A stretch of DNA of 20,095 nucleotides. It comes from a virus. The position numbers and the translations under genes are program-made. The stretch covers positions 1 to 20,095 of the IMG/VR virus record IMGVR_UViG_3300038424_000035, one strand, 5' to 3'. Below, in pieces: positions 6,562-17,075 of the stretch. The notes under the pieces are model-generated. The model ran no database searches, had not been told where the DNA came from, and saw only the letters and a program-made list of their open reading frames with translations. Every line of letters starts with the position of its first letter. The first letter of the stretch is position 1.

Positions 6562-6738
6562 TCATTTTGCCAGCGGTGGGTTCTCCACCATCTTGTTCAT
6601 CGGCGGCACGCTGACGAACTTCGCGATGCCCTGCGAGACCCAGACGGCGGCGCAGTCCGCCGTGACGCTCCGCCGCTCGCCGCGATGGGCGCACTTCCAA
6701 TCGACGAGGAACTCGACCTCAATCGTTGTGGGTGACAA
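6562..6738 (-). CDS. Small conserved phage protein, probable TTG start
   Basis: The frame ends at TGA 6564-6562. Its core (VEFLVDWKCAHRGERRSVTADCAAVWV, then SQGIAKFV) matches a short protein layout common in tailed phages: a strand-forming opening, a G-E region, and a late GIA-x-x-V. The recognisable part begins only after 6730. An ATG exists at 6795, but that start would place 19 extra codons inside the HNH gene in another frame. TTG 6738-6736, preceded by GGAGAGG, gives 58 residues and overlaps the HNH stop by 20 bases. Its original start may have been displaced when the HNH gene arrived. Function unknown; similar proteins are encoded among head and head-tail genes. Confidence 0.6.
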   Translation of the reverse strand: MSPTTIEVEFLVDWKCAHRGERRSVTADCAAVWVSQGIAKFVSVPPMNKMVENPPLAK

Positions 6739-7501
6739 TGCGCCTCTCCACGATCTTAAGAGAGTGTAACAGTCGAAGTTCTTGATAAGTCTCATAAAAG
6801 AACTGCCACTTTTGCCGAGTTTCTGGCTTACCGTAGGTTAGGGAATGGCAAGAATCGCACAGAGCAATGAGGTTGATCTGGTCTTCGTTTTTCTTATCTC
6901 CGTCAATATGGTGAACGGGCAATGCTCGCCAAGTAGCCACCGCCCCGCAAAATTGGCACAAATGCTTATCGCGCTGGCGAACTTCATATCTAGTGCGTCT
7001 CACAAATGCGCTCGTATAGGGTTCATAGGAGGCGCCTCCATTCCATGTCGGACTCTTCTCCCCGCTTCGCCCATACATCGGATTTCCTGGACCAGTACAC
7101 CCGAGACGGAAGCAAGAGCGAGAACAATAGATACGCTTCTGGTCAGGGGTTTGTGTTGCGGGAACAAAAATCAACCTCCCGCAATGGGTGCAAGGAATAG
7201 CGACTTTCTCCTCCCAGCGATAGTTATTCGCCCCGCATAGCCATAGGTGATAGCAACGACTAGAACAAAAATTCCTTGCGTTGTTTGTTCGATATTGCTT
7301 ACCCATGAACACTCGTCCGCATTGCTTACAGGCATATTCCCTGGTCTTGCCCTTCCAGCGCGGCGCACCTTTGCCGGATTGAAAAACGCCTAAGCATTTC
7401 TTAGAGCAACAGATTGCGGGGCGTTTGTTGATGAAATAATTGCTCACATAAAACGGCTCCCCGCAAACAACGCACATAATAATGACGCCTTTTTTGCTCA
7501 T
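6719..7501 (-). CDS. Free-standing HNH homing endonuclease with zinc-knuckle array
   Basis: 260 residues from ATG 7501-7499, which overlaps the glycosyltransferase stop as ATGA. A start at 7546 would run further into that gene and is less likely. Three CxxC...CxxxC zinc-binding modules come first (Cys10/13 with a pair near 32-36; Cys58/61/79/83; Cys104/107/126/130). A NUMOD3-like stretch follows (GNPMYGRSGEKSPTWNGG, 139-156), then an HNH nuclease: Cys182/Cys185, His197-His198 in LPVHHIDGD, Asn210 in NLIALC, and CDSCH at 215-219. HNH proteins cut DNA using one metal ion. In phages they often act as homing endonucleases that copy their own gene into related genomes. No intron features flank it. 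The region looks more A+T-rich than its neighbours, which fits transfer. It lacks a strong Shine-Dalgarno and probably relies on coupling. Confidence 0.92.
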   Translation of the reverse strand: MSKKGVIIMCVVCGEPFYVSNYFINKRPAICCSKKCLGVFQSGKGAPRWKGKTREYACKQCGRVFMGKQYRTNNARNFCSSRCYHLWLCGANNYRWEEKVAIPCTHCGRLIFVPATQTPDQKRIYCSRSCFRLGCTGPGNPMYGRSGEKSPTWNGGASYEPYTSAFVRRTRYEVRQRDKHLCQFCGAVATWRALPVHHIDGDKKNEDQINLIALCDSCHSLTYGKPETRQKWQFFYETYQELRLLHSLKIVERRIVTHND

Positions 7502-8748
7502 GCTTTTGATATCTTGCGTTCCATATCTACAAATAGTGGCTCCCAAAACTTTGGGAATACGTTGTCCCAGTCATACTCCAGAATGCCGCTTCGGACCTTC
7601 TGCGCTATCGCGCCGCGGTCGCACGGCTTCACGGCCGCGTAGCCTTCTTCGAGCGCATCCAGCACGGCCCCGGCGTCACAGCGGAGGCGGAAGCCTTCCG
7701 TACCGAGCCACTCGCGGTCGGCGAACTTGTCCGTCTTGATGAGCCAGCCGGTCTTGCAGAGTTCCGGCCCGCTGGTCGTATCGGTCACGACGACGGGAAC
7801 GCCGCACGCCTGAGCCTCGATGATGGGAACGCCGAAGCCTTCGCCGCGTGTCGGGAGCGCGAATAGGTCGAACCCGTTGTAGATATTCGCCATCATCGTC
7901 GCGTCGATCCGGCCCATCCACATCGCGCCCTGGTCCGGCCATAGCACCCAATCGTTGATGCCGATGTTCTTGGCGATTTGCTGATAGTTGAGCGTCTCGG
8001 CGAGAATCCCGCCAGCGTGTGAGTGCAGATAGAGCCGCGCTTCTTCGTGCCGCTCGTGGAACACTTTGAACGCCTGCATGAGCGGGATGTAGCCCTTGCG
8101 GTCATCGCCGTAGTTAAGCCCGACGGCACCGATGAGGAACTCGCCGCCCTTGAGCCCGACGGCCTTGCGGAACGCCTCGCGCCCGGCTGGGCGGATCGTG
8201 AACACCGACGCGTCCATGCCGAGCGGCGCGTAGATAGGCCTTAGCCCCATCGCCTCAAGTTCTCGGATAGCGTGCCGCGTCGGGCCGATGACGATTCCCG
8301 GCTCGACGAATATCTCTTTCATGCGCTCCGATATCCATTCGGAGTCGATGTACGCGACGGCCGCCCATTGCTCTTTCGGGAACAGACGGTGGCCGCACAT
8401 CGTCCAGATGTCCCACGACGTGAAAACGTAATCGAACTTCTCTTGCTCCATCATCTTGTTGATGTAGTAGCCGTTCGTGCCGTCGAACACATCGATGCCC
8501 TGGACTTCCTCGTAGAGTTTGCCGAGCAGGGTGGACGGGTCTTGATGCGCGTCAACCGCCGTGCCAACCTCATCGACCAACTCCATCATCCGGGCGCGGT
8601 CATACCAATAATGCCACCCGGTCGTCTGATGCTTCGTGGCGATTCGGACGTAGTGACCCGCGTCCGTCAGCCGCCGCACCGCTTCAGCGGTGACGATGCC
8701 GTATGCGGTCTTGCAGTCCGGCTCGCTCGAACTCCAAATAATTCTCAT
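7498..8748 (-). CDS. Glycosyltransferase family 4 (GT-B fold)
   Basis: 416 residues from ATG 8748-8746 with AGGAG upstream; another ATG four bases earlier is out of frame. The N-terminal Rossmann-like half starts MRIIWSSSEPDCKTAYGIVT. The domain linker carries APLGMDASVF (GxDxxxF, near 175-183), and the C-terminal half has DRKG at 216-219. The EX7E motif of GT4 enzymes is GEGFGVPIIE with Glu303 and Glu311, followed by ACGVPVVVTDTTSGPEL. The enzyme should be retaining and use a nucleotide-diphospho sugar. It lies between capsid genes and a glycosyltransferase/methyltransferase, HAD and radical SAM group. Glycosylation of virion proteins or of the host surface is therefore plausible. No membrane segment is visible. 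Confidence 0.93.
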   Translation of the reverse strand: MRIIWSSSEPDCKTAYGIVTAEAVRRLTDAGHYVRIATKHQTTGWHYWYDRARMMELVDEVGTAVDAHQDPSTLLGKLYEEVQGIDVFDGTNGYYINKMMEQEKFDYVFTSWDIWTMCGHRLFPKEQWAAVAYIDSEWISERMKEIFVEPGIVIGPTRHAIRELEAMGLRPIYAPLGMDASVFTIRPAGREAFRKAVGLKGGEFLIGAVGLNYGDDRKGYIPLMQAFKVFHERHEEARLYLHSHAGGILAETLNYQQIAKNIGINDWVLWPDQGAMWMGRIDATMMANIYNGFDLFALPTRGEGFGVPIIEAQACGVPVVVTDTTSGPELCKTGWLIKTDKFADREWLGTEGFRLRCDAGAVLDALEEGYAAVKPCDRGAIAQKVRSGILEYDWDNVFPKFWEPLFVDMERKISKA

Positions 8749-9278: not shown

Positions 9279-10316
9279 TTAACTGTGTGTGGCGATCGTG
9301 ACAAACGGGCTCACGGTTGTGGACCCGTTCTTCGGCGTGATTGCCGAGGACAGCATCGGCTGTCCGTCCACGCGGAACGTGATTCGCCAGAACGTCTCAT
9401 CTGTGACGTAGCCGTAAGAACCGGGAACGTGCTGAGACGCATCGATGATGATTGACCTGTCGGCTATCAGGTAGTGGGCGAAATCGGCGAGAATCAAATC
9501 GCCGAACGTGCCGAGTGCCGTGGCTTGCTCGGTAACGATAAATGGCCGCCCGAGGATTGTGTTCTGCCCCATGTCGATGTGATTGGCGAGCGCCGTGTCG
9601 CTGCGCTTGAGTTTGATGAGGGAGGCGAGCGCGCCGGGGCTGACGAGCCACACGGCCCGCTTCCAACTGTCGGGGAGGAAACGAGCCGCTACACCGGCGA
9701 TGTCCTCGTAGTAGATATCGGTGGATGTCCCAGCGGCACGGACTGTCTTGATGAGCGCGGGGCAATTGAGAATCCCGAGCGGTTGGCCGGCGCCGGAGCC
9801 GCGAATGAACGCGGCGTCCTCGACAAACGCCAGAGCGCGGCCGATGAAGGTGCGCATGAGGTTGCCGAAGTTGTCAACGTCGGCCATGAGTTCGTTCGCC
9901 GTGAAGAACCCGCCCCCGAGTTTGTGTGGCGTCATTTCAACATCTCCGAACTTGATGCCGGAGATGACGCTCGCGCCGCTGATGGCGGTCGCCGGGGCCA
10001 TCCATGTGAACGTCACCCCACCGTAGATGTAGGTGGAGCGGTCGCTTTCAACGATGGTCCGCACGTGGAGCGAATCGGTGTGCGCTTTCAGCACCACCGC
10101 CCGAGGCCGGACGATGGCATCCTCCAGCGCAACCGCCATGATTTGAGAGGCCCATTCCTCAGGGATGAGGAAACCGCCGAGAGAATCATCCGACATAGCA
10201 AGGTGCCCAGTCTTGACGAGCCGACTGTCGGACGCTTGACCAATGCTGACGGCGCGGGCGCGGACTAGAAATTCACCGAGACTCTTGAAGCCGCCCGTCT
10301 TTGTATCGTAATCCAT
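9279..10316 (-). CDS. HK97-fold major capsid protein, second paralogue lacking the N-terminal scaffold domain
   Basis: 345 residues from ATG 10316-10314 behind TAGGAGCAGAAA. It is clearly homologous to the capsid protein immediately upstream. Shared blocks include DDSxGGFLxPE (43-53), xEMTPHKLGG, RGSGAGQPLGILNC, a TILGRPFIVTE segment and DLILADFxxYLIADRxxIIDAS. These are typical of HK97-family (phage_capsid) proteins. It starts almost directly with the N-arm (FKSLGEFLVRAR near residues 10-21), so it lacks the roughly 65-residue charged coiled-coil region that serves as an internal scaffold in its neighbour. It is full length for a mature subunit and has no frameshift. It may co-assemble with the first capsid protein, form vertices or a variant shell, or have been recruited from another phage. 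Confidence 0.92.
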   Translation of the reverse strand: MDYDTKTGGFKSLGEFLVRARAVSIGQASDSRLVKTGHLAMSDDSLGGFLIPEEWASQIMAVALEDAIVRPRAVVLKAHTDSLHVRTIVESDRSTYIYGGVTFTWMAPATAISGASVISGIKFGDVEMTPHKLGGGFFTANELMADVDNFGNLMRTFIGRALAFVEDAAFIRGSGAGQPLGILNCPALIKTVRAAGTSTDIYYEDIAGVAARFLPDSWKRAVWLVSPGALASLIKLKRSDTALANHIDMGQNTILGRPFIVTEQATALGTFGDLILADFAHYLIADRSIIIDASQHVPGSYGYVTDETFWRITFRVDGQPMLSSAITPKNGSTTVSPFVTIATHS

Positions 10317-10331: not shown

Positions 10332-11582
10332 TCAGGACGTGGTCGAGGCGAGTCCGACGAACGGGGAATAGGTGGCGGAGTTGTCCTTCAAGGTCAACTT
10401 CGTCTGGGGCCAGCATTGCCCAGCGACGCGCAGAACGAACCGCCATGCGGTCTCGTCGTAGTCGAATCTGATGTGCGTGGAGGCGTCGATGGTGATGGCC
10501 TGGCGATCGCCGATGAGGTAGTAGGAGAAGTCGGCGAAGATAATGTCGTTTGCGGTTGCGAGATGGGGCAGTTTTTCCGTGATGAACACGGGCCGGCCCA
10601 GGAGCGTCCAGTTGATGCCGAGGTGTGCATCCGGCTGAAAGACCAGGATGCGGGTATACTCGGTCGAGAGATACTTGGTGCCCATCGTGATGAGTTCGGG
10701 AATGAGGCTCGGGTTGATGACCCAGACCGCTCGATTGAGCGACGTGGGGAGCATGGCCGCATACATCTTGGCGATGTCGTCATAGGAGATGTGCGACACG
10801 ACGGCCCGATAGACGGAAGAGAGACAGCCGCAGTTCAGGACGCCCAGGGGCATACCGGCACCGGAGCCACGCAGGAAAGCGTAGTCCTCGTTCCACGCCC
10901 ACGCCTTCGCGAACTGCCGCTTGAGCATCGGCTCCAGCGCGATGGCGCTGTCGGCGAGCAATTCGTTCGAGGCATAGGTGATGCCGGCCAATTTGTGCGG
11001 CGTCAATTCCATCTGACCGAACAGCGGTGCGGTCCCAGACTTCTGGGCCGCTTCTGCCGTCCAGTAGGCGATGATGCCGCCGAACAGGGACGAGACGTGG
11101 CTCGTGTCGGCGACATAGGGGATTTTCAGCGAGTCGGTCGTCATCGGAATGACGGTCGGCCCGCACCGGCGCACGATTTCATCTTCGATTGCCAGTTCCT
11201 GCAGGTCTGCCCTATAGACCTCAGGGACGAGGAAACCGCCCATTGAGTCGTCGGCGATTTCCGAGTGTCCCGTCGTGCCGGCCCCGCCTTTCTCCTCGAC
11301 GTAGAGTTTGGCGAGACGCGGGTCGAGAGTGCCCGACTTGCGGGACCGATAGATGGAGTCCAAGAAATACCGGAAGCCCTTGAACTCCTTGGCGGCTTCA
11401 TTCGCCGCTTTTTGCTTTTCCTCGGGGATGAGGAATTTCTTATCGGCTTCCTTGATTTTGGCCTCTGCGTCGGCGCGCTGTTCCTTCATAGCGTCGGCGA
11501 CGTACTTGCCCACCGCCTCGTTGACGGCGAGTTTGACGGCCTCGTCGATTTGAGCATTAGCCTGTTTGGTTTCGTCGCTCAT
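10332..11582 (-). CDS. HK97-fold major capsid protein with N-terminal scaffolding (delta) domain
   Basis: 416 residues from ATG 11582-11580; the Shine-Dalgarno is weak, so coupling to the preceding small gene is possible. Residues 1-65 are charged and helical (Ala/Glu/Lys heptad-like), as expected of the delta domain that scaffolds the prohead and is removed by the protease. The capsid core begins near FKGFRYFLDSI and DDSMGGFLVPE (111-121), followed by MELTPHKLAG, RGSGAGMPLGVLNC, NWTLLGRPVFITE and IIFADFSYYLIGDR. These blocks match HK97-type major capsid proteins. It is the first of two tandem capsid genes and the only one with a scaffold domain, so it is the likelier assembly driver. The prohead protease is encoded three small genes upstream. 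Confidence 0.94.
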   Translation of the reverse strand: MSDETKQANAQIDEAVKLAVNEAVGKYVADAMKEQRADAEAKIKEADKKFLIPEEKQKAANEAAKEFKGFRYFLDSIYRSRKSGTLDPRLAKLYVEEKGGAGTTGHSEIADDSMGGFLVPEVYRADLQELAIEDEIVRRCGPTVIPMTTDSLKIPYVADTSHVSSLFGGIIAYWTAEAAQKSGTAPLFGQMELTPHKLAGITYASNELLADSAIALEPMLKRQFAKAWAWNEDYAFLRGSGAGMPLGVLNCGCLSSVYRAVVSHISYDDIAKMYAAMLPTSLNRAVWVINPSLIPELITMGTKYLSTEYTRILVFQPDAHLGINWTLLGRPVFITEKLPHLATANDIIFADFSYYLIGDRQAITIDASTHIRFDYDETAWRFVLRVAGQCWPQTKLTLKDNSATYSPFVGLASTTS

Positions 11583-13540: not shown

Positions 13541-13981
13541 TTACTTCAGCGAGAATTCTCCTCGCTTGTGGGCCTGCTTCAAGGCCGCGTTTATCTCCGG
13601 GAGGTGCTTCCCGTACCAGATGCGGAACACCTCGGGGTTCACTTTCAATATTTTTGCCATCTTGTCCATGTCATAGACCTGGGCGTTCAGGAACTCGACG
13701 ACCTTCTTCAAGTCGATGTCCGGCAATGCGTCCGGCGACACGACGCTCGACGGATACGTCTCCATCAGCGTGCGCAGTATCGCCTTGACCTTGCCCTGCT
13801 GTTGGTCCATGATGCGGTTCATGGTGTGCGCGCCGGCGTTGACCCACTTCAGCAACCGCTCCAGGTTCAGGTCGAGTTCAAGAGCGATTTTCTCGCCCGT
13901 CCAGGAGAGCGTCTCGGTCATGTACTTCCATGCGACCCAGCGCTCCAATGCCTCTAGCGTGTCATACTTCCAATCGGTCAT
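13541..13981 (-). CDS. Helical phage protein with two helix-turn-helix-like segments
   Basis: 146 residues from ATG 13981-13979, which overlaps the head morphogenesis stop as ATGA and has GAGGAGGAAAC as Shine-Dalgarno. A start at 14047 is not needed and lies within the upstream gene. The protein is almost wholly helical. Two stretches look like helix-turn-helix motifs: 27-46 (WTGEKIALELDLNLERLLKW) and 103-123 (DMDKMAKILKVNPEVFRIWY). It could be a DNA-binding packaging helper or a head assembly factor. I do not recognise the family, and the motif calls are by eye. Confidence 0.68.
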   Translation of the reverse strand: MTDWKYDTLEALERWVAWKYMTETLSWTGEKIALELDLNLERLLKWVNAGAHTMNRIMDQQQGKVKAILRTLMETYPSSVVSPDALPDIDLKKVVEFLNAQVYDMDKMAKILKVNPEVFRIWYGKHLPEINAALKQAHKRGEFSLK

Positions 13982-16900
13982 GTTTCCTCCTCTTCGCTTT
14001 CGCTTTCCGCCTCTTCGATCTCCGGCACGATGGGTAGAATACAGCACCGGCAGTTCGGATGGTCGGGCGGCTCGTTCTCGCCGTCAGAGAAGTCCTCATC
14101 GAGCGCGACGACCTCGCCATCGAGTACGGCGCAATCTTCGCAGTTGTGGACAAGGATGCCGTTAGCAAAATATGTATGTGCGCCCTCAACTTCCAGATTG
14201 AACACAAAGAATGGTTGACTTCCGAGGACGAGAGTGGTATAATAACTATAGATACCATGTATATATGTGCTTATTGCCACAAGCAATTTATCCCAGCTTA
14301 TCAATTGCAAACTCGCTCTCGCCCTAAGTATTGTTCTCGGACGTGTTACCATCGAGCCACGAAATTTGGGCAAACCAAGACGTGCCCAGTTTGTGGCAAA
14401 GCGTTCTATGCCTACCCCTCCCATAGGGACAAAACGCATTGCTCGCGGGCTTGCTTGGCCGCTTCGGCTCCGATCATTACGAAGACCTGCCCGGTCTGCG
14501 GGAAGAATTTTGAGGTTCATAAGTCTATCGCTCATCGCTATAAGGTTTGCAGTTGGGCCTGCCGGACAAAGTTCCTCGTGCGGAAAATATGCCCCCGATG
14601 TGGGAAACAATTCGTCGCATATACGCCTCGGATGAAGCATTGCTCGGAAGCCTGCCGTCGCCCACCAGTATTCGTTGACTGCTTGAACTGCGGCAAGAGA
14701 TTTAGAACGACACCATCGACAAACGCAGAGCGAAGATTCTGTTGCTTCTCGTGTTGCCGCAAATATCACGGCGAGACTTCGATTGAGCGTGCGGTTCGTG
14801 AAGCCCTGGAGCGTTTGCGTATTCCTTTCAGCCCAGAGCATCCCGTCGGGAGACTCAGCGTTGACTTTTATCTGCCTCAGCAGAACGCGTGCCTTGAGAT
14901 AGATGGAACGTATTGGCATTCTGACCTGGCGAAAGATGCCAAGCGCGACGCGAGGTTGCGTGAACTTGGCTATCTTGTTTTCCACATTGCCGAGAGTGAA
15001 ATAAAAAACGCGAGTGACCTGGACGACTTGATTGTCACTCGTCTTCAGTCGGCTCCCATGTCGTAGGGCTTGAATTTCCCGCCAGCCATAGCCAACTTCA
15101 TACACCGGATGCTCGGCAGTTGCCGTCAGCCGTCGCCCATCGGATGTCTCTATCTCGATCATCTTGCCAGCATATCTGCGCCGCATAGTCCGCGAGACCC
15201 GTCGCCAGCCCGCATGAGTAAGAACTTCGTCGCCCTTCTGGATATCCTGGATATGCGTCTCTCCGCTTCTGGTGATGACATTCGTGTTCGCCGGAAAACA
15301 GGTCAAATCATCCTCACTCGCCATCCATTCCTTTGATTCCAGCCCGCTCTGCTTGTACGTCTCGACCGCCGCGGCGTTCGATGCGCGCAACGTCTCGGTG
15401 CGCGCTATGCGCTCGGCGCGATATCGGTCCCACGACTGGAACATCTCCGTGATGCGCCGCGTGAGGTCCGGAATGCCTTCTCCGGCTATCATCCCGGCGC
15501 GCAACGTGTCGGTGAGCATCTCCTGGCTGGTCGTCTGCAACTGGTCAGCGAGTTTGATGGTGTACGTGCGAAGATACTCCACGAGCGCAGGAGAGGTCAT
15601 ATCGAAGTCAATGCCGAGTCCGTAGTTGTCGTTTAGAGCGTCGCCCTCGGCGTCCAGTATCGCTTTGAATATGGGTCGCAGTTCCTCGGCTGTCAAGTTC
15701 TTCATCGCGCTGGAGCCGGCTAACCACCGCTCGATGAGGTCGGGGCGGTAGTCTTTGCCGGAGCCTCGACAAACAAGGCAAGGCGTGTTGATGAGCCCCA
15801 CGTCCGTAGAGATGTGAGCGTAGCCTGTTCCCTTGCAGTCTGGGCAATCTTTCTGGTGGCCGGAGTGCTTCATGTGCGCGAGCATGATTTTCCGCTCATG
15901 CGCCCAGACGCGCCGCATCGCGGCAGAGATGCGATGCTCGAACCGTTTGAGCCGTCGATTCAGAGCGAGAATGACGCGCCGGCGTTCCGTCATACTGATT
16001 TTGCGCCCGCGGGGCCGTTTCACGACAGCCAGGACTGCGGCCTGGCTGTCAAAATGGCTCCTAGACCCTCCCAGCGGGGTTTCCGGGGCGATTAGAGCGT
16101 GAGCCGTGGCGTGTTCGTTCGCCTTGAGCGCCTCGGCGAGTTTCGCCGTGAGCGTTTCCGGATGCAGGCGCGCCTCCAACTCTACGCGGCTCGCTTCATG
16201 ATGCGCTCGGTCATACGGTATCCCCGTCAGCATCAGCCCGCGCTCCGTCAATTCGTGAAGCGCGAAGAACGGCATCTCGGGCGGCTCATCCTCATCGTCG
16301 AGCCACATCTCGCCGGGCGGGATGAATGTCGCATAGACGAGGTCGTGGCCGCCTTCCGTGAAGTCGTCATCGTAGTCCTTGCGGATGAGGTCGCCGTCCA
16401 CGAGCCAGCACATGACGTAGGCGTTGCTGTACGCGTCGATTTGCTCGAGGTGAACGCGCTCGGCGGCGTCCGGCGCATCCATCGGGCCACGATAGACACC
16501 GCCGGCCGACTGGCGCTCGTCGCGCTCTTTGCGGTCGGCGTATTCCAGCGCGTGGTCGTAATCGTCACCGCCGACCATCAGGCGGTACTCCGTCGCCATG
16601 TGGTCGATATAGAAGCCGTATTCATACGCGAACACGGAGTTGTCAATCCAGAACTCTTTCTCCGGAATGAAGAAGAACCGGTAGTGCTGGCCGAAGTTCG
16701 TGAAGTCCGTGTCTATCTCGCGACGGATGTAGTCGCCGTGGACAAGCCAGACTTGGAACTCGCCGCGTGTTTCGTAGAGATGGTCATGCGCCAACATGAT
16801 TTCGTCCGGCGTGACCGTCTCCTCACCCGTGTCACCGGCGGCCCGAACAACCGCGTTGTCCACATGAACAACACCGTTGCCCACCCGTGCGGCTATCGTC

Positions 16901-16992
16901 TCGGCCAGACGTTCGGCGATACCGTCACGCGCCGCTTCCGCCAGAAAGCGGTCGGCCACCGTGACGGCGAGGTCAGCACGACGTTGTTTCAT
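13978..16992 (-). CDS. Phage Mu F / SPP1 gp7-like head morphogenesis protein, interrupted by an intein
   Basis: 1004 residues before splicing. The start at ATG 16992-16990 overlaps the stop of the 28-residue ORF as ATGA; an ATG at 17019 lies inside that ORF. Residues 78-150 and 194-272 are two related copies of a V/W-LVxGDxIR...F/MWxD domain, the second ending HELTE (246-250) and the first a degenerate HMATE (131-135). CxxC pairs at 383/386 and 405/408, in a CxxCxGxG setting, resemble a DnaJ-type zinc site. The Mu-F core covers about 455-564 (ERIARTETLRASNAAAVETY) and continues at 951-1004 (CEDCAVLDG...PPDHPNCRCC). The intein (565-950) sits between DDLT and CEDC. The spliced product would be 618 residues. 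Relatives sit at the portal and help DNA packaging or ejection. Confidence 0.9.
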   Translation of the reverse strand: MKQRRADLAVTVADRFLAEAARDGIAERLAETIAARVGNGVVHVDNAVVRAAGDTGEETVTPDEIMLAHDHLYETRGEFQVWLVHGDYIRREIDTDFTNFGQHYRFFFIPEKEFWIDNSVFAYEYGFYIDHMATEYRLMVGGDDYDHALEYADRKERDERQSAGGVYRGPMDAPDAAERVHLEQIDAYSNAYVMCWLVDGDLIRKDYDDDFTEGGHDLVYATFIPPGEMWLDDEDEPPEMPFFALHELTERGLMLTGIPYDRAHHEASRVELEARLHPETLTAKLAEALKANEHATAHALIAPETPLGGSRSHFDSQAAVLAVVKRPRGRKISMTERRRVILALNRRLKRFEHRISAAMRRVWAHERKIMLAHMKHSGHQKDCPDCKGTGYAHISTDVGLINTPCLVCRGSGKDYRPDLIERWLAGSSAMKNLTAEELRPIFKAILDAEGDALNDNYGLGIDFDMTSPALVEYLRTYTIKLADQLQTTSQEMLTDTLRAGMIAGEGIPDLTRRITEMFQSWDRYRAERIARTETLRASNAAAVETYKQSGLESKEWMASEDDLTCFPANTNVITRSGETHIQDIQKGDEVLTHAGWRRVSRTMRRRYAGKMIEIETSDGRRLTATAEHPVYEVGYGWREIQALRHGSRLKTSDNQVVQVTRVFYFTLGNVENKIAKFTQPRVALGIFRQVRMPIRSIYLKARVLLRQIKVNAESPDGMLWAERNTQTLQGFTNRTLNRSLAVIFAATREATESSLCVCRWCRSKSLAAVQAVNEYWWATAGFRAMLHPRRICDELFPTSGAYFPHEELCPAGPTANLIAMSDRLMNLKILPADRAGLRNDRSRSGQASPRAMRFVPMGGVGIERFATNWARLGLPKFRGSMVTRPRTILRARASLQLISWDKLLVAISTYIHGIYSYYTTLVLGSQPFFVFNLEVEGAHTYFANGILVHNCEDCAVLDGEVVALDEDFSDGENEPPDHPNCRCCILPIVPEIEEAESESEEEET
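14215..14243 (+). promoter_or_regulatory. Near-consensus sigma70 promoter for the antisense endonuclease
   Basis: The -35 box TTGACT (14215-14220, five of six consensus bases), a 17-bp spacer, and the -10 box TATAAT (14238-14243, all six) with an extended TGG just before it. The predicted transcription start is near 14250, about seven bases before ATG 14257. The promoter is wholly inside the C-terminal intein coding sequence, antisense to its residues 353-362. It is the best promoter match I found in the window and points at the only plus-strand gene. Confidence 0.85.
14257..15066 (+). CDS. Zinc-knuckle array / Vsr-EDxHD-like homing endonuclease encoded antisense within the intein
   Basis: 269 residues, ATG 14257 to TAG 15064-15066, the only plus-strand gene. 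Residues 1-167 are five zinc modules of form CxxC-x(13-18)-CxxxC: Cys4/7/26/30, 43/46/62/66, 78/81/98/102, 112/115/129/133 and 142/145/162/166. Residues 174-250 are a PD-(D/E)XK-type nuclease: Glu177 (SIERAV), Asp203 (SVDFYLP), LEIDG (214-217), Trp220-His221 and a late LGYLVFHIAESEI. The 26- and 18-residue spacing of Glu177, Asp203 and His221 resembles Vsr endonuclease as I remember it, and the EDxHD homing endonucleases known from phage introns and split inteins. The start was chosen because the promoter at 14215-14243 puts the transcript start some seven bases upstream. There is no Shine-Dalgarno, so the mRNA would be almost leaderless. It probably cuts intein-less copies of the head gene. 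Confidence 0.9.
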   Translation: MYICAYCHKQFIPAYQLQTRSRPKYCSRTCYHRATKFGQTKTCPVCGKAFYAYPSHRDKTHCSRACLAASAPIITKTCPVCGKNFEVHKSIAHRYKVCSWACRTKFLVRKICPRCGKQFVAYTPRMKHCSEACRRPPVFVDCLNCGKRFRTTPSTNAERRFCCFSCCRKYHGETSIERAVREALERLRIPFSPEHPVGRLSVDFYLPQQNACLEIDGTYWHSDLAKDAKRDARLRELGYLVFHIAESEIKNASDLDDLIVTRLQSAPMS

Positions 16993-17075
16993 TGTTTCTT
17001 CCGTCCCCAGATGAACCACGTCAGCCCCATGATGATGGTGAACAGCAGAATGACGATGACTTTGACGAGACTCAT
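16989..17075 (-). CDS. 28-residue single-span membrane peptide
   Basis: The reading frame begins at ATG 17075-17073, overlapping the portal stop as ATGA, and ends at TGA 16991-16989, overlapping the next start as ATGA. A strong Shine-Dalgarno (TTGGAGGCGAG) precedes it inside the portal gene. The product is MSLVK, then about 17 hydrophobic residues (VIVILLFTIIMGLTWFI), then WGRKKQ: one membrane span with a positively charged end. Without it the 80 bases between portal and head protein would be the only unexplained gap in this tight cluster. It could be a small membrane-anchoring, holin-like or superinfection factor. The function is unknown. Confidence 0.7.
   Translation of the reverse strand: MSLVKVIVILLFTIIMGLTWFIWGRKKQ

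Follow-up and report, generated by a model that had tools for sequence, protein, structure and literature searches.

The minus strand of a 20,095-nucleotide stretch of viral DNA (IMG/VR record IMGVR_UViG_3300038424_000035, positions 1 to 20,095; the window) encodes a phage minor head protein that contains an intein, and this intein very probably has a homing endonuclease gene (HEG) overprinted on its opposite strand, with splicing, plus-strand transcription and cleavage predicted from the two frames. Both readings appear to be kept open by evolution, in antisense and same-strand versions, in dozens of unrelated phages.

The precursor and its intein

The precursor is a MuF/SPP1-gp7-like minor head protein of 1013 amino acids (13978-17019, minus strand), encoded in an open frame of 1013 codons with a GTG start and an ATG at residue 10. 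It matches NCBIfam phageSPP1_gp7, intein_Nterm (residues 574-640) and intein_Cterm (residues 939-960), as well as Pfam Phage_Mu_F. The N-extein (residues 1-573; 15301-17019, minus) holds the Phage_Mu_F and phageSPP1_gp7 matches, which reach residue 574. The C-extein, from Cys960 onward (13978-14142, minus), carries the CxxC and HPNCRC motif of MuF and matches phrog_595 and phrog_4728 over residues 958-1010. Between the exteins lies an intein of 386 amino acids (residues 574-959; 14143-15300, minus), which begins with C1, ends with H385 and N386 and is followed by the +1 Cys. It has the features of a canonical class 1 Hint intein: an N-terminal Cys, a block-B TxxH, a C-terminal HN and the +1 Cys. 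C1, T61, H64, H385 and N386 are invariant in the 11 inteins aligned. A first-pass annotation of the DNA had described an uninterrupted intein here, and the frame and splicing blocks are indeed intact. It also gave a spliced product of 618 residues; this length holds if translation starts at the ATG at residue 10, but from the GTG at 17019 the product would have 627.

In the AlphaFold2 model of the intein, only residues 1-104 (14989-15300, minus) and 363-386 (14143-14214, minus) are predicted with confidence; these are the N-terminal and C-terminal Hint parts, both at a predicted local distance difference test (pLDDT) score of ~90. The C-terminal part is also covered by the intein_Cterm match. 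Foldseek matches the Hint fold of these halves to gp41-1 (top, 4.2e-9) and to DnaB inteins. The linker between them (residues 105-362; 14215-14988, minus) is an open frame predicted to be disordered (pLDDT ~28). It had been described as free of endonuclease motifs, and profile scans of the precursor found no endonuclease family in the minus-frame linker. The region is thus not a classical bifunctional intein, which would have its endonuclease in the intein frame; nor are the halves in two open reading frames (ORFs), as in a split intein, since a single 1013-codon ORF spans them and is kept in relatives. In the middle of the intein region, the structured reading is predicted to be that of the antisense frame. 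An apparent conserved linker motif in the intein frame, 'MPV', was rejected as a sign of function: it appears to be the mirror of the YWH active site of the HEG, and therefore gives no evidence of linker function.

The antisense endonuclease gene

The HEG (14257-15066, plus strand) starts with ATG and encodes 269 amino acids, and its codons are aligned with those of the intein frame. It sits opposite intein residues 79-348, filling the gap between the splicing halves almost exactly, as first reported. The earlier assignment to a zinc-knuckle/Vsr-like endonuclease stands: a zinc-knuckle array is followed by an EDxHD-type, C-terminal nuclease domain that is DUF559/Vsr-like. With a profile of homologues, I-Bth0305I (PDB 3r3p) is the top solved relative at 1.5e-17 and Vsr is more distant. 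Foldseek on the AlphaFold model (mean pLDDT 86.4) matches 3r3p at 5e-6. The EDxHD core is present, with E177, D203, E214, D216, H221 and D227 invariant among 18 HEG homologues, and zinc-ligand and catalytic-core residues are retained across the homologues. From sequence and model, the plus-strand product is predicted to be an EDxHD homing endonuclease of the I-Bth0305I family, with DNA cleavage as its expected activity.

A sigma-70-like promoter (14215-14243, plus; TTGACT-17-TATAAT with TG before the -10) lies 13 nt ahead of the HEG start codon. The site has 11 of 12 consensus matches, a score equalled by none of 500 shuffles, and its 29-nt block is identical between the two HEG alleles described below. 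This promoter-like sequence directly upstream of the gene supports separate transcription of the HEG.

Conservation of both reading frames

Two doubts raised with the first-pass annotation, a hidden stop or frameshift in the minus frame and a plus frame that is not conserved, are answered by related contigs. An independent contig from another record (L013/L001; 99.97% identical) keeps both frames open, as do L014, L015, L016 and L019 (~96% identical), where a 6-bp indel respects both. Because these other contigs carry both open frames, indel included, we exclude sequencing or assembly error as the cause of the arrangement.

Opposite the genes of this GC-rich window, antisense runs of 250-340 open codons are common, which makes openness by itself weak evidence. 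The chance of an open intein frame opposite the HEG is 0.05 under phage codon usage and 0.0035 under the third-base composition of the HEG. Stops in the intein frame could come only from TTA, CTA and TCA codons in the HEG, which uses them in 0 of 16 Leu and 0 of 18 Ser codons; none occur in the L019 allele. A codon-aligned antisense frame (phase 0) opposite a gene without these three codons is the ambigrammatic pattern. Taken alone, the openness of the window gene is only suggestive, and the comparative data carry the case.

Between the window and L019, the exteins and splicing blocks differ by ~1% and the HEG block by ~11%. The ratio of nonsynonymous to synonymous substitution rates (dN/dS) in this block is 0.147 in the HEG frame (52.5 synonymous and 32.5 nonsynonymous changes) and 1.02 in the intein frame. 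Selection thus preserves the protein sequence of the endonuclease, and the linker sequence is unconstrained. The plus frame is strongly conserved in homologues. Two HEG alleles occupy one intein. The contrast between the diverged block (window 14203-15037) and its flanks points to a separate history, or to recombinational replacement of the HEG segment.

A sister system in the same phages also varies. L019/L017 carry an intein in the terminase, whereas the window terminase, 97% identical to theirs, has none, and this presence/absence polymorphism suggests recent homing.

Recurrence in other phages

The antisense search combined a HEG profile search with a frame-independent search for splicing blocks; E-values of the locus searches apply to the candidate stretches only. 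One of the queries was derived from unbroken cases only, which probably makes split forms look rarer than they are. Expected stops were obtained by synonymous resampling, and relatives without detected intein halves served as controls. With resampling floors of 1/600 and 1/2000, the summed log probabilities of -137 and -18.9 are conservative, but related sequences are not independent events.

Ten distinct lineages, with GC contents of 0.48-0.68, have an in-register antisense EDxHD gene within an unbroken intein: the window group, L047, L063, L168, L170, L176, L177, L178, L179 and L192. The arrangement was first thought to have no known parallel, a claim that falls with at least nine other antisense lineages and a same-strand equivalent in many phage inteins. 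The host proteins are MuF, portal-MuF fusions and, in L192, what is likely an HK97 prohead protease. L170 and L063 were assigned to MuF from their C-extein motifs. The ten lineages have 0 intein-frame stops where 40.4 are expected. For the 19 EDxHD genes near which no intein halves were detected, the count is 125 antisense stops against 135.6 expected. Nested L063 clusters with free-standing L172 and L062 (support 99/98), and there are stops in those two and none in L063; within this supported clade, openness therefore follows nesting. The comparison shows purging of TTA, CTA and TCA while linker residues can otherwise vary, and selection that keeps the linker translatable is its best reading.

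The window HEG itself has no match in the Phages collection, where the L047 homologue gave weak matches. Among the genome contigs, the HEG search gave one free-standing relative plus weak matches.

A same-strand form is found with HNH genes. The linker of the terminase intein in the relatives of the window is overlapped by a same-strand HNH zinc-knuckle gene in another frame. In a survey of 80 contigs chosen by HNH-gene similarity only, the gene is nested in an intein in 67, free-standing in 12 and cut at the contig edge in one. All 67 nested genes share one frame offset and have no intein-frame stops across GC contents of 28-67%, while the third frame of the nested loci has a mean of 17.7 stops and the 12 free-standing relatives have 2-9. 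With near-copies removed, the tally is 0 stops for 59 nested genes, where 296 are expected, and 36 for 7 free genes, where 38 are expected. The HNH frame has dN/dS values of 0.09-0.30 and the intein frame 0.6-4.6. The HNH genes start ~220-300 nt into the intein; Shine-Dalgarno-like sites of 5 or more bases precede 20 of 67 HNH starts, compared with 12 of 194 internal controls.

These inteins are in terminases where examined. Two isolates have the unbroken overlap with an annotation for the terminase alone: Acinetobacter phage Highwayman and Tetrasphaera phage TJE1. In Lactobacillus CL2, Vibrio 1.238.A and Brochothrix BL3, stops separate the terminase intein halves around the HNH gene, and the HNH gene is free in Acinetobacter BP10, Pseudomonas PAE1 and Exiguobacterium EauM-23. 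The broken terminases of CL2 (L152), 1.238.A (L155) and BL3 (L151) are annotated as separate genes and are likely unrecognised split inteins.

Alternative explanations

Several observations weigh against an overprinted intein with an independently expressed HEG. In L173 (3342-4502), an antisense EDxHD gene lies between minus-strand MuF intein halves, and the intein frame has nine stops; this locus is best read, from its sequence, as a split intein with an antisense endonuclease. Three further EDxHD genes without detected intein halves (L183:3360-4427, L191:1-840 and L194:2343-3128) are open for 262-356 codons in the in-register antisense frame and were counted neither as nested nor as free in the stop tally, and L188, L193 and L224, counted as free, have far fewer antisense stops than expected. 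These six may lie in inteins missed by the profiles, possibly highly divergent or split ones. Clear promoters were not found in most other antisense lineages, with only a weak extended -10 in L047, and a scan with joined exteins found no intein-free MuF allele in this phage group. As a side observation, the N-half of an intein in L181 (3213-4378) continues in frame into an EDxHD endonuclease, with the C-half downstream in another frame; this is another intermediate arrangement or a frameshift.

It is quite unlikely that the window holds a split (fractured) intein whose halves are made separately and trans-splice, with frame continuity incidental. L173 and the isolates CL2, 1.238.A and BL3 have stops between their halves, the closest structure is that of gp41-1, known as a split intein, and EDxHD genes are said to occur between split-intein halves. 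However, every full-length contig has one uninterrupted ORF, and an untranslated linker would leave the selection against stops unexplained. An accident of composition, in which the HEG inserted between intein halves and the frame opposite it lacked stops by luck, would fit the frequent openness of in-register antisense frames in GC-rich phage, the chance of 0.05 and the 250-340-codon runs elsewhere. This explanation is extremely unlikely, given none of the ~40 stops expected in the ten antisense lineages, none of the ~296 expected in the 59 same-strand genes, and free relatives with stops as expected. For the class as a whole, synonymous resampling and the free-standing controls reject a chance open frame.

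Since many intein endonucleases decay, the plus-strand ORF could be a dead remnant with only the intein of importance, but the dN/dS of 0.147, the retained zinc-ligand and catalytic-core residues and the promoter identical in both alleles make this very unlikely. We give almost no weight to a self-splicing intron removed from the RNA. EDxHD enzymes such as I-Bth0305I are intron-encoded, but a search of 13900-15500 at E up to 1 found nothing in Rfam, the HEG has complete Hint blocks on either side, and an intron would need no open host frame.

Relation to known systems

The overprinted intein shares features with several known elements. Like classical bifunctional inteins such as PI-SceI, it has a Hint domain with an endonuclease between its halves, but in PI-SceI-type inteins the endonuclease is in frame, whereas here the intein frame gives a predicted disordered linker. 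Fractured genes, attributed to Dassa et al. in 2009 (a study that PMC10448857 cites), are reportedly split inteins whose halves are separated by a free HEG. The window resembles them in having an EDxHD-type endonuclease between intein halves in phage-type genes, but their host is in two ORFs and ours is one continuous frame overlapping the HEG. The catalytic domain is that of I-Bth0305I by both profile and fold; that enzyme is a mobile intron protein according to its PDB record, unlike the window gene, which is antisense in an intein.

Aligned antisense frames that are open through avoidance of TTA, CTA and TCA, as in all ten antisense cases, occur in ambigrammatic narnaviruses (PMC6884476). 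In this aligned (-0) frame synonymous changes can always remove stops (PMC6884476), which fits with its use in every antisense case here. Narnaviruses are RNA viruses whose antisense-frame function is unknown (PMC6884476), whereas both frames here have an assignable role.

The nearest published analogue that we found is the ShiLan insertion, an out-of-frame HNH gene in a phage methylase without a splicing domain (PMC11855218). This 'hidden HNH' (2025) also has a HEG in a different frame from its host gene, which stays open across the insertion, and a mobile distribution, and its HNH and zinc fingers resemble the same-strand class. It differs in having no detectable splicing domains, in being thought to remain in the protein and in occurring on the same strand only; the window has a recognisable intein with splicing blocks and an antisense EDxHD gene. 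A full-text literature search found no antisense HEG within an intein. The same-strand class may be partly reported in an actinophage intein preprint (bioRxiv 10.1101/2025.01.02.630785), to judge by its title, which names a 'Non-Canonical Architecture', and its citation in PMC11855218, and priority is uncertain.

Other genes in the window

The window contains a free-standing HNH gene (6719-7546, minus) with zinc-knuckle repeats, a Pfam HNH match (3e-4) and low GC at third codon positions. A glycosyltransferase gene (7498-8748) shares 49 nt at its end with it. Two adjacent similar genes (9279-10316 and 10332-11582, minus) look like tandem major capsid-like copies.

A model for overprinted inteins

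For the window intein, we propose that translation of the minus strand yields a single precursor consisting of the N-extein, the Hint N-part, a structureless linker of ~258 residues, the Hint C-part and the C-extein. The two Hint parts would fold together, splice and discard the linker. The HEG would be made from plus-strand RNA off its own promoter, and the endonuclease would cut intein-less alleles, driving copying of the whole block. Because the HEG lies inside a needed head gene, the host frame must stay readable, and TTA, CTA and TCA are therefore purged from the HEG.

We think it likely that overprinted inteins are a general recurrent class. The linker, of at least 200 codons, would be translated, structureless and nearly free in sequence, and kept solely for ribosome read-through of an out-of-frame or antisense endonuclease gene. 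An antisense HEG with its own promoter would be uncoupled from the late structural genes, and its transcript may act on the host gene.

The records examined call only one of the two genes, which is a gap in annotation. The system offers a clear example from nature of extended dual coding in which both frames have identifiable roles, and its same-strand form is available in cultured phages. Overprinting would add a third route for carrying an endonuclease in an intein, besides in-frame fusion and the split intein, and suggests a way for a free HEG to enter a mini-intein while leaving the host gene functional.
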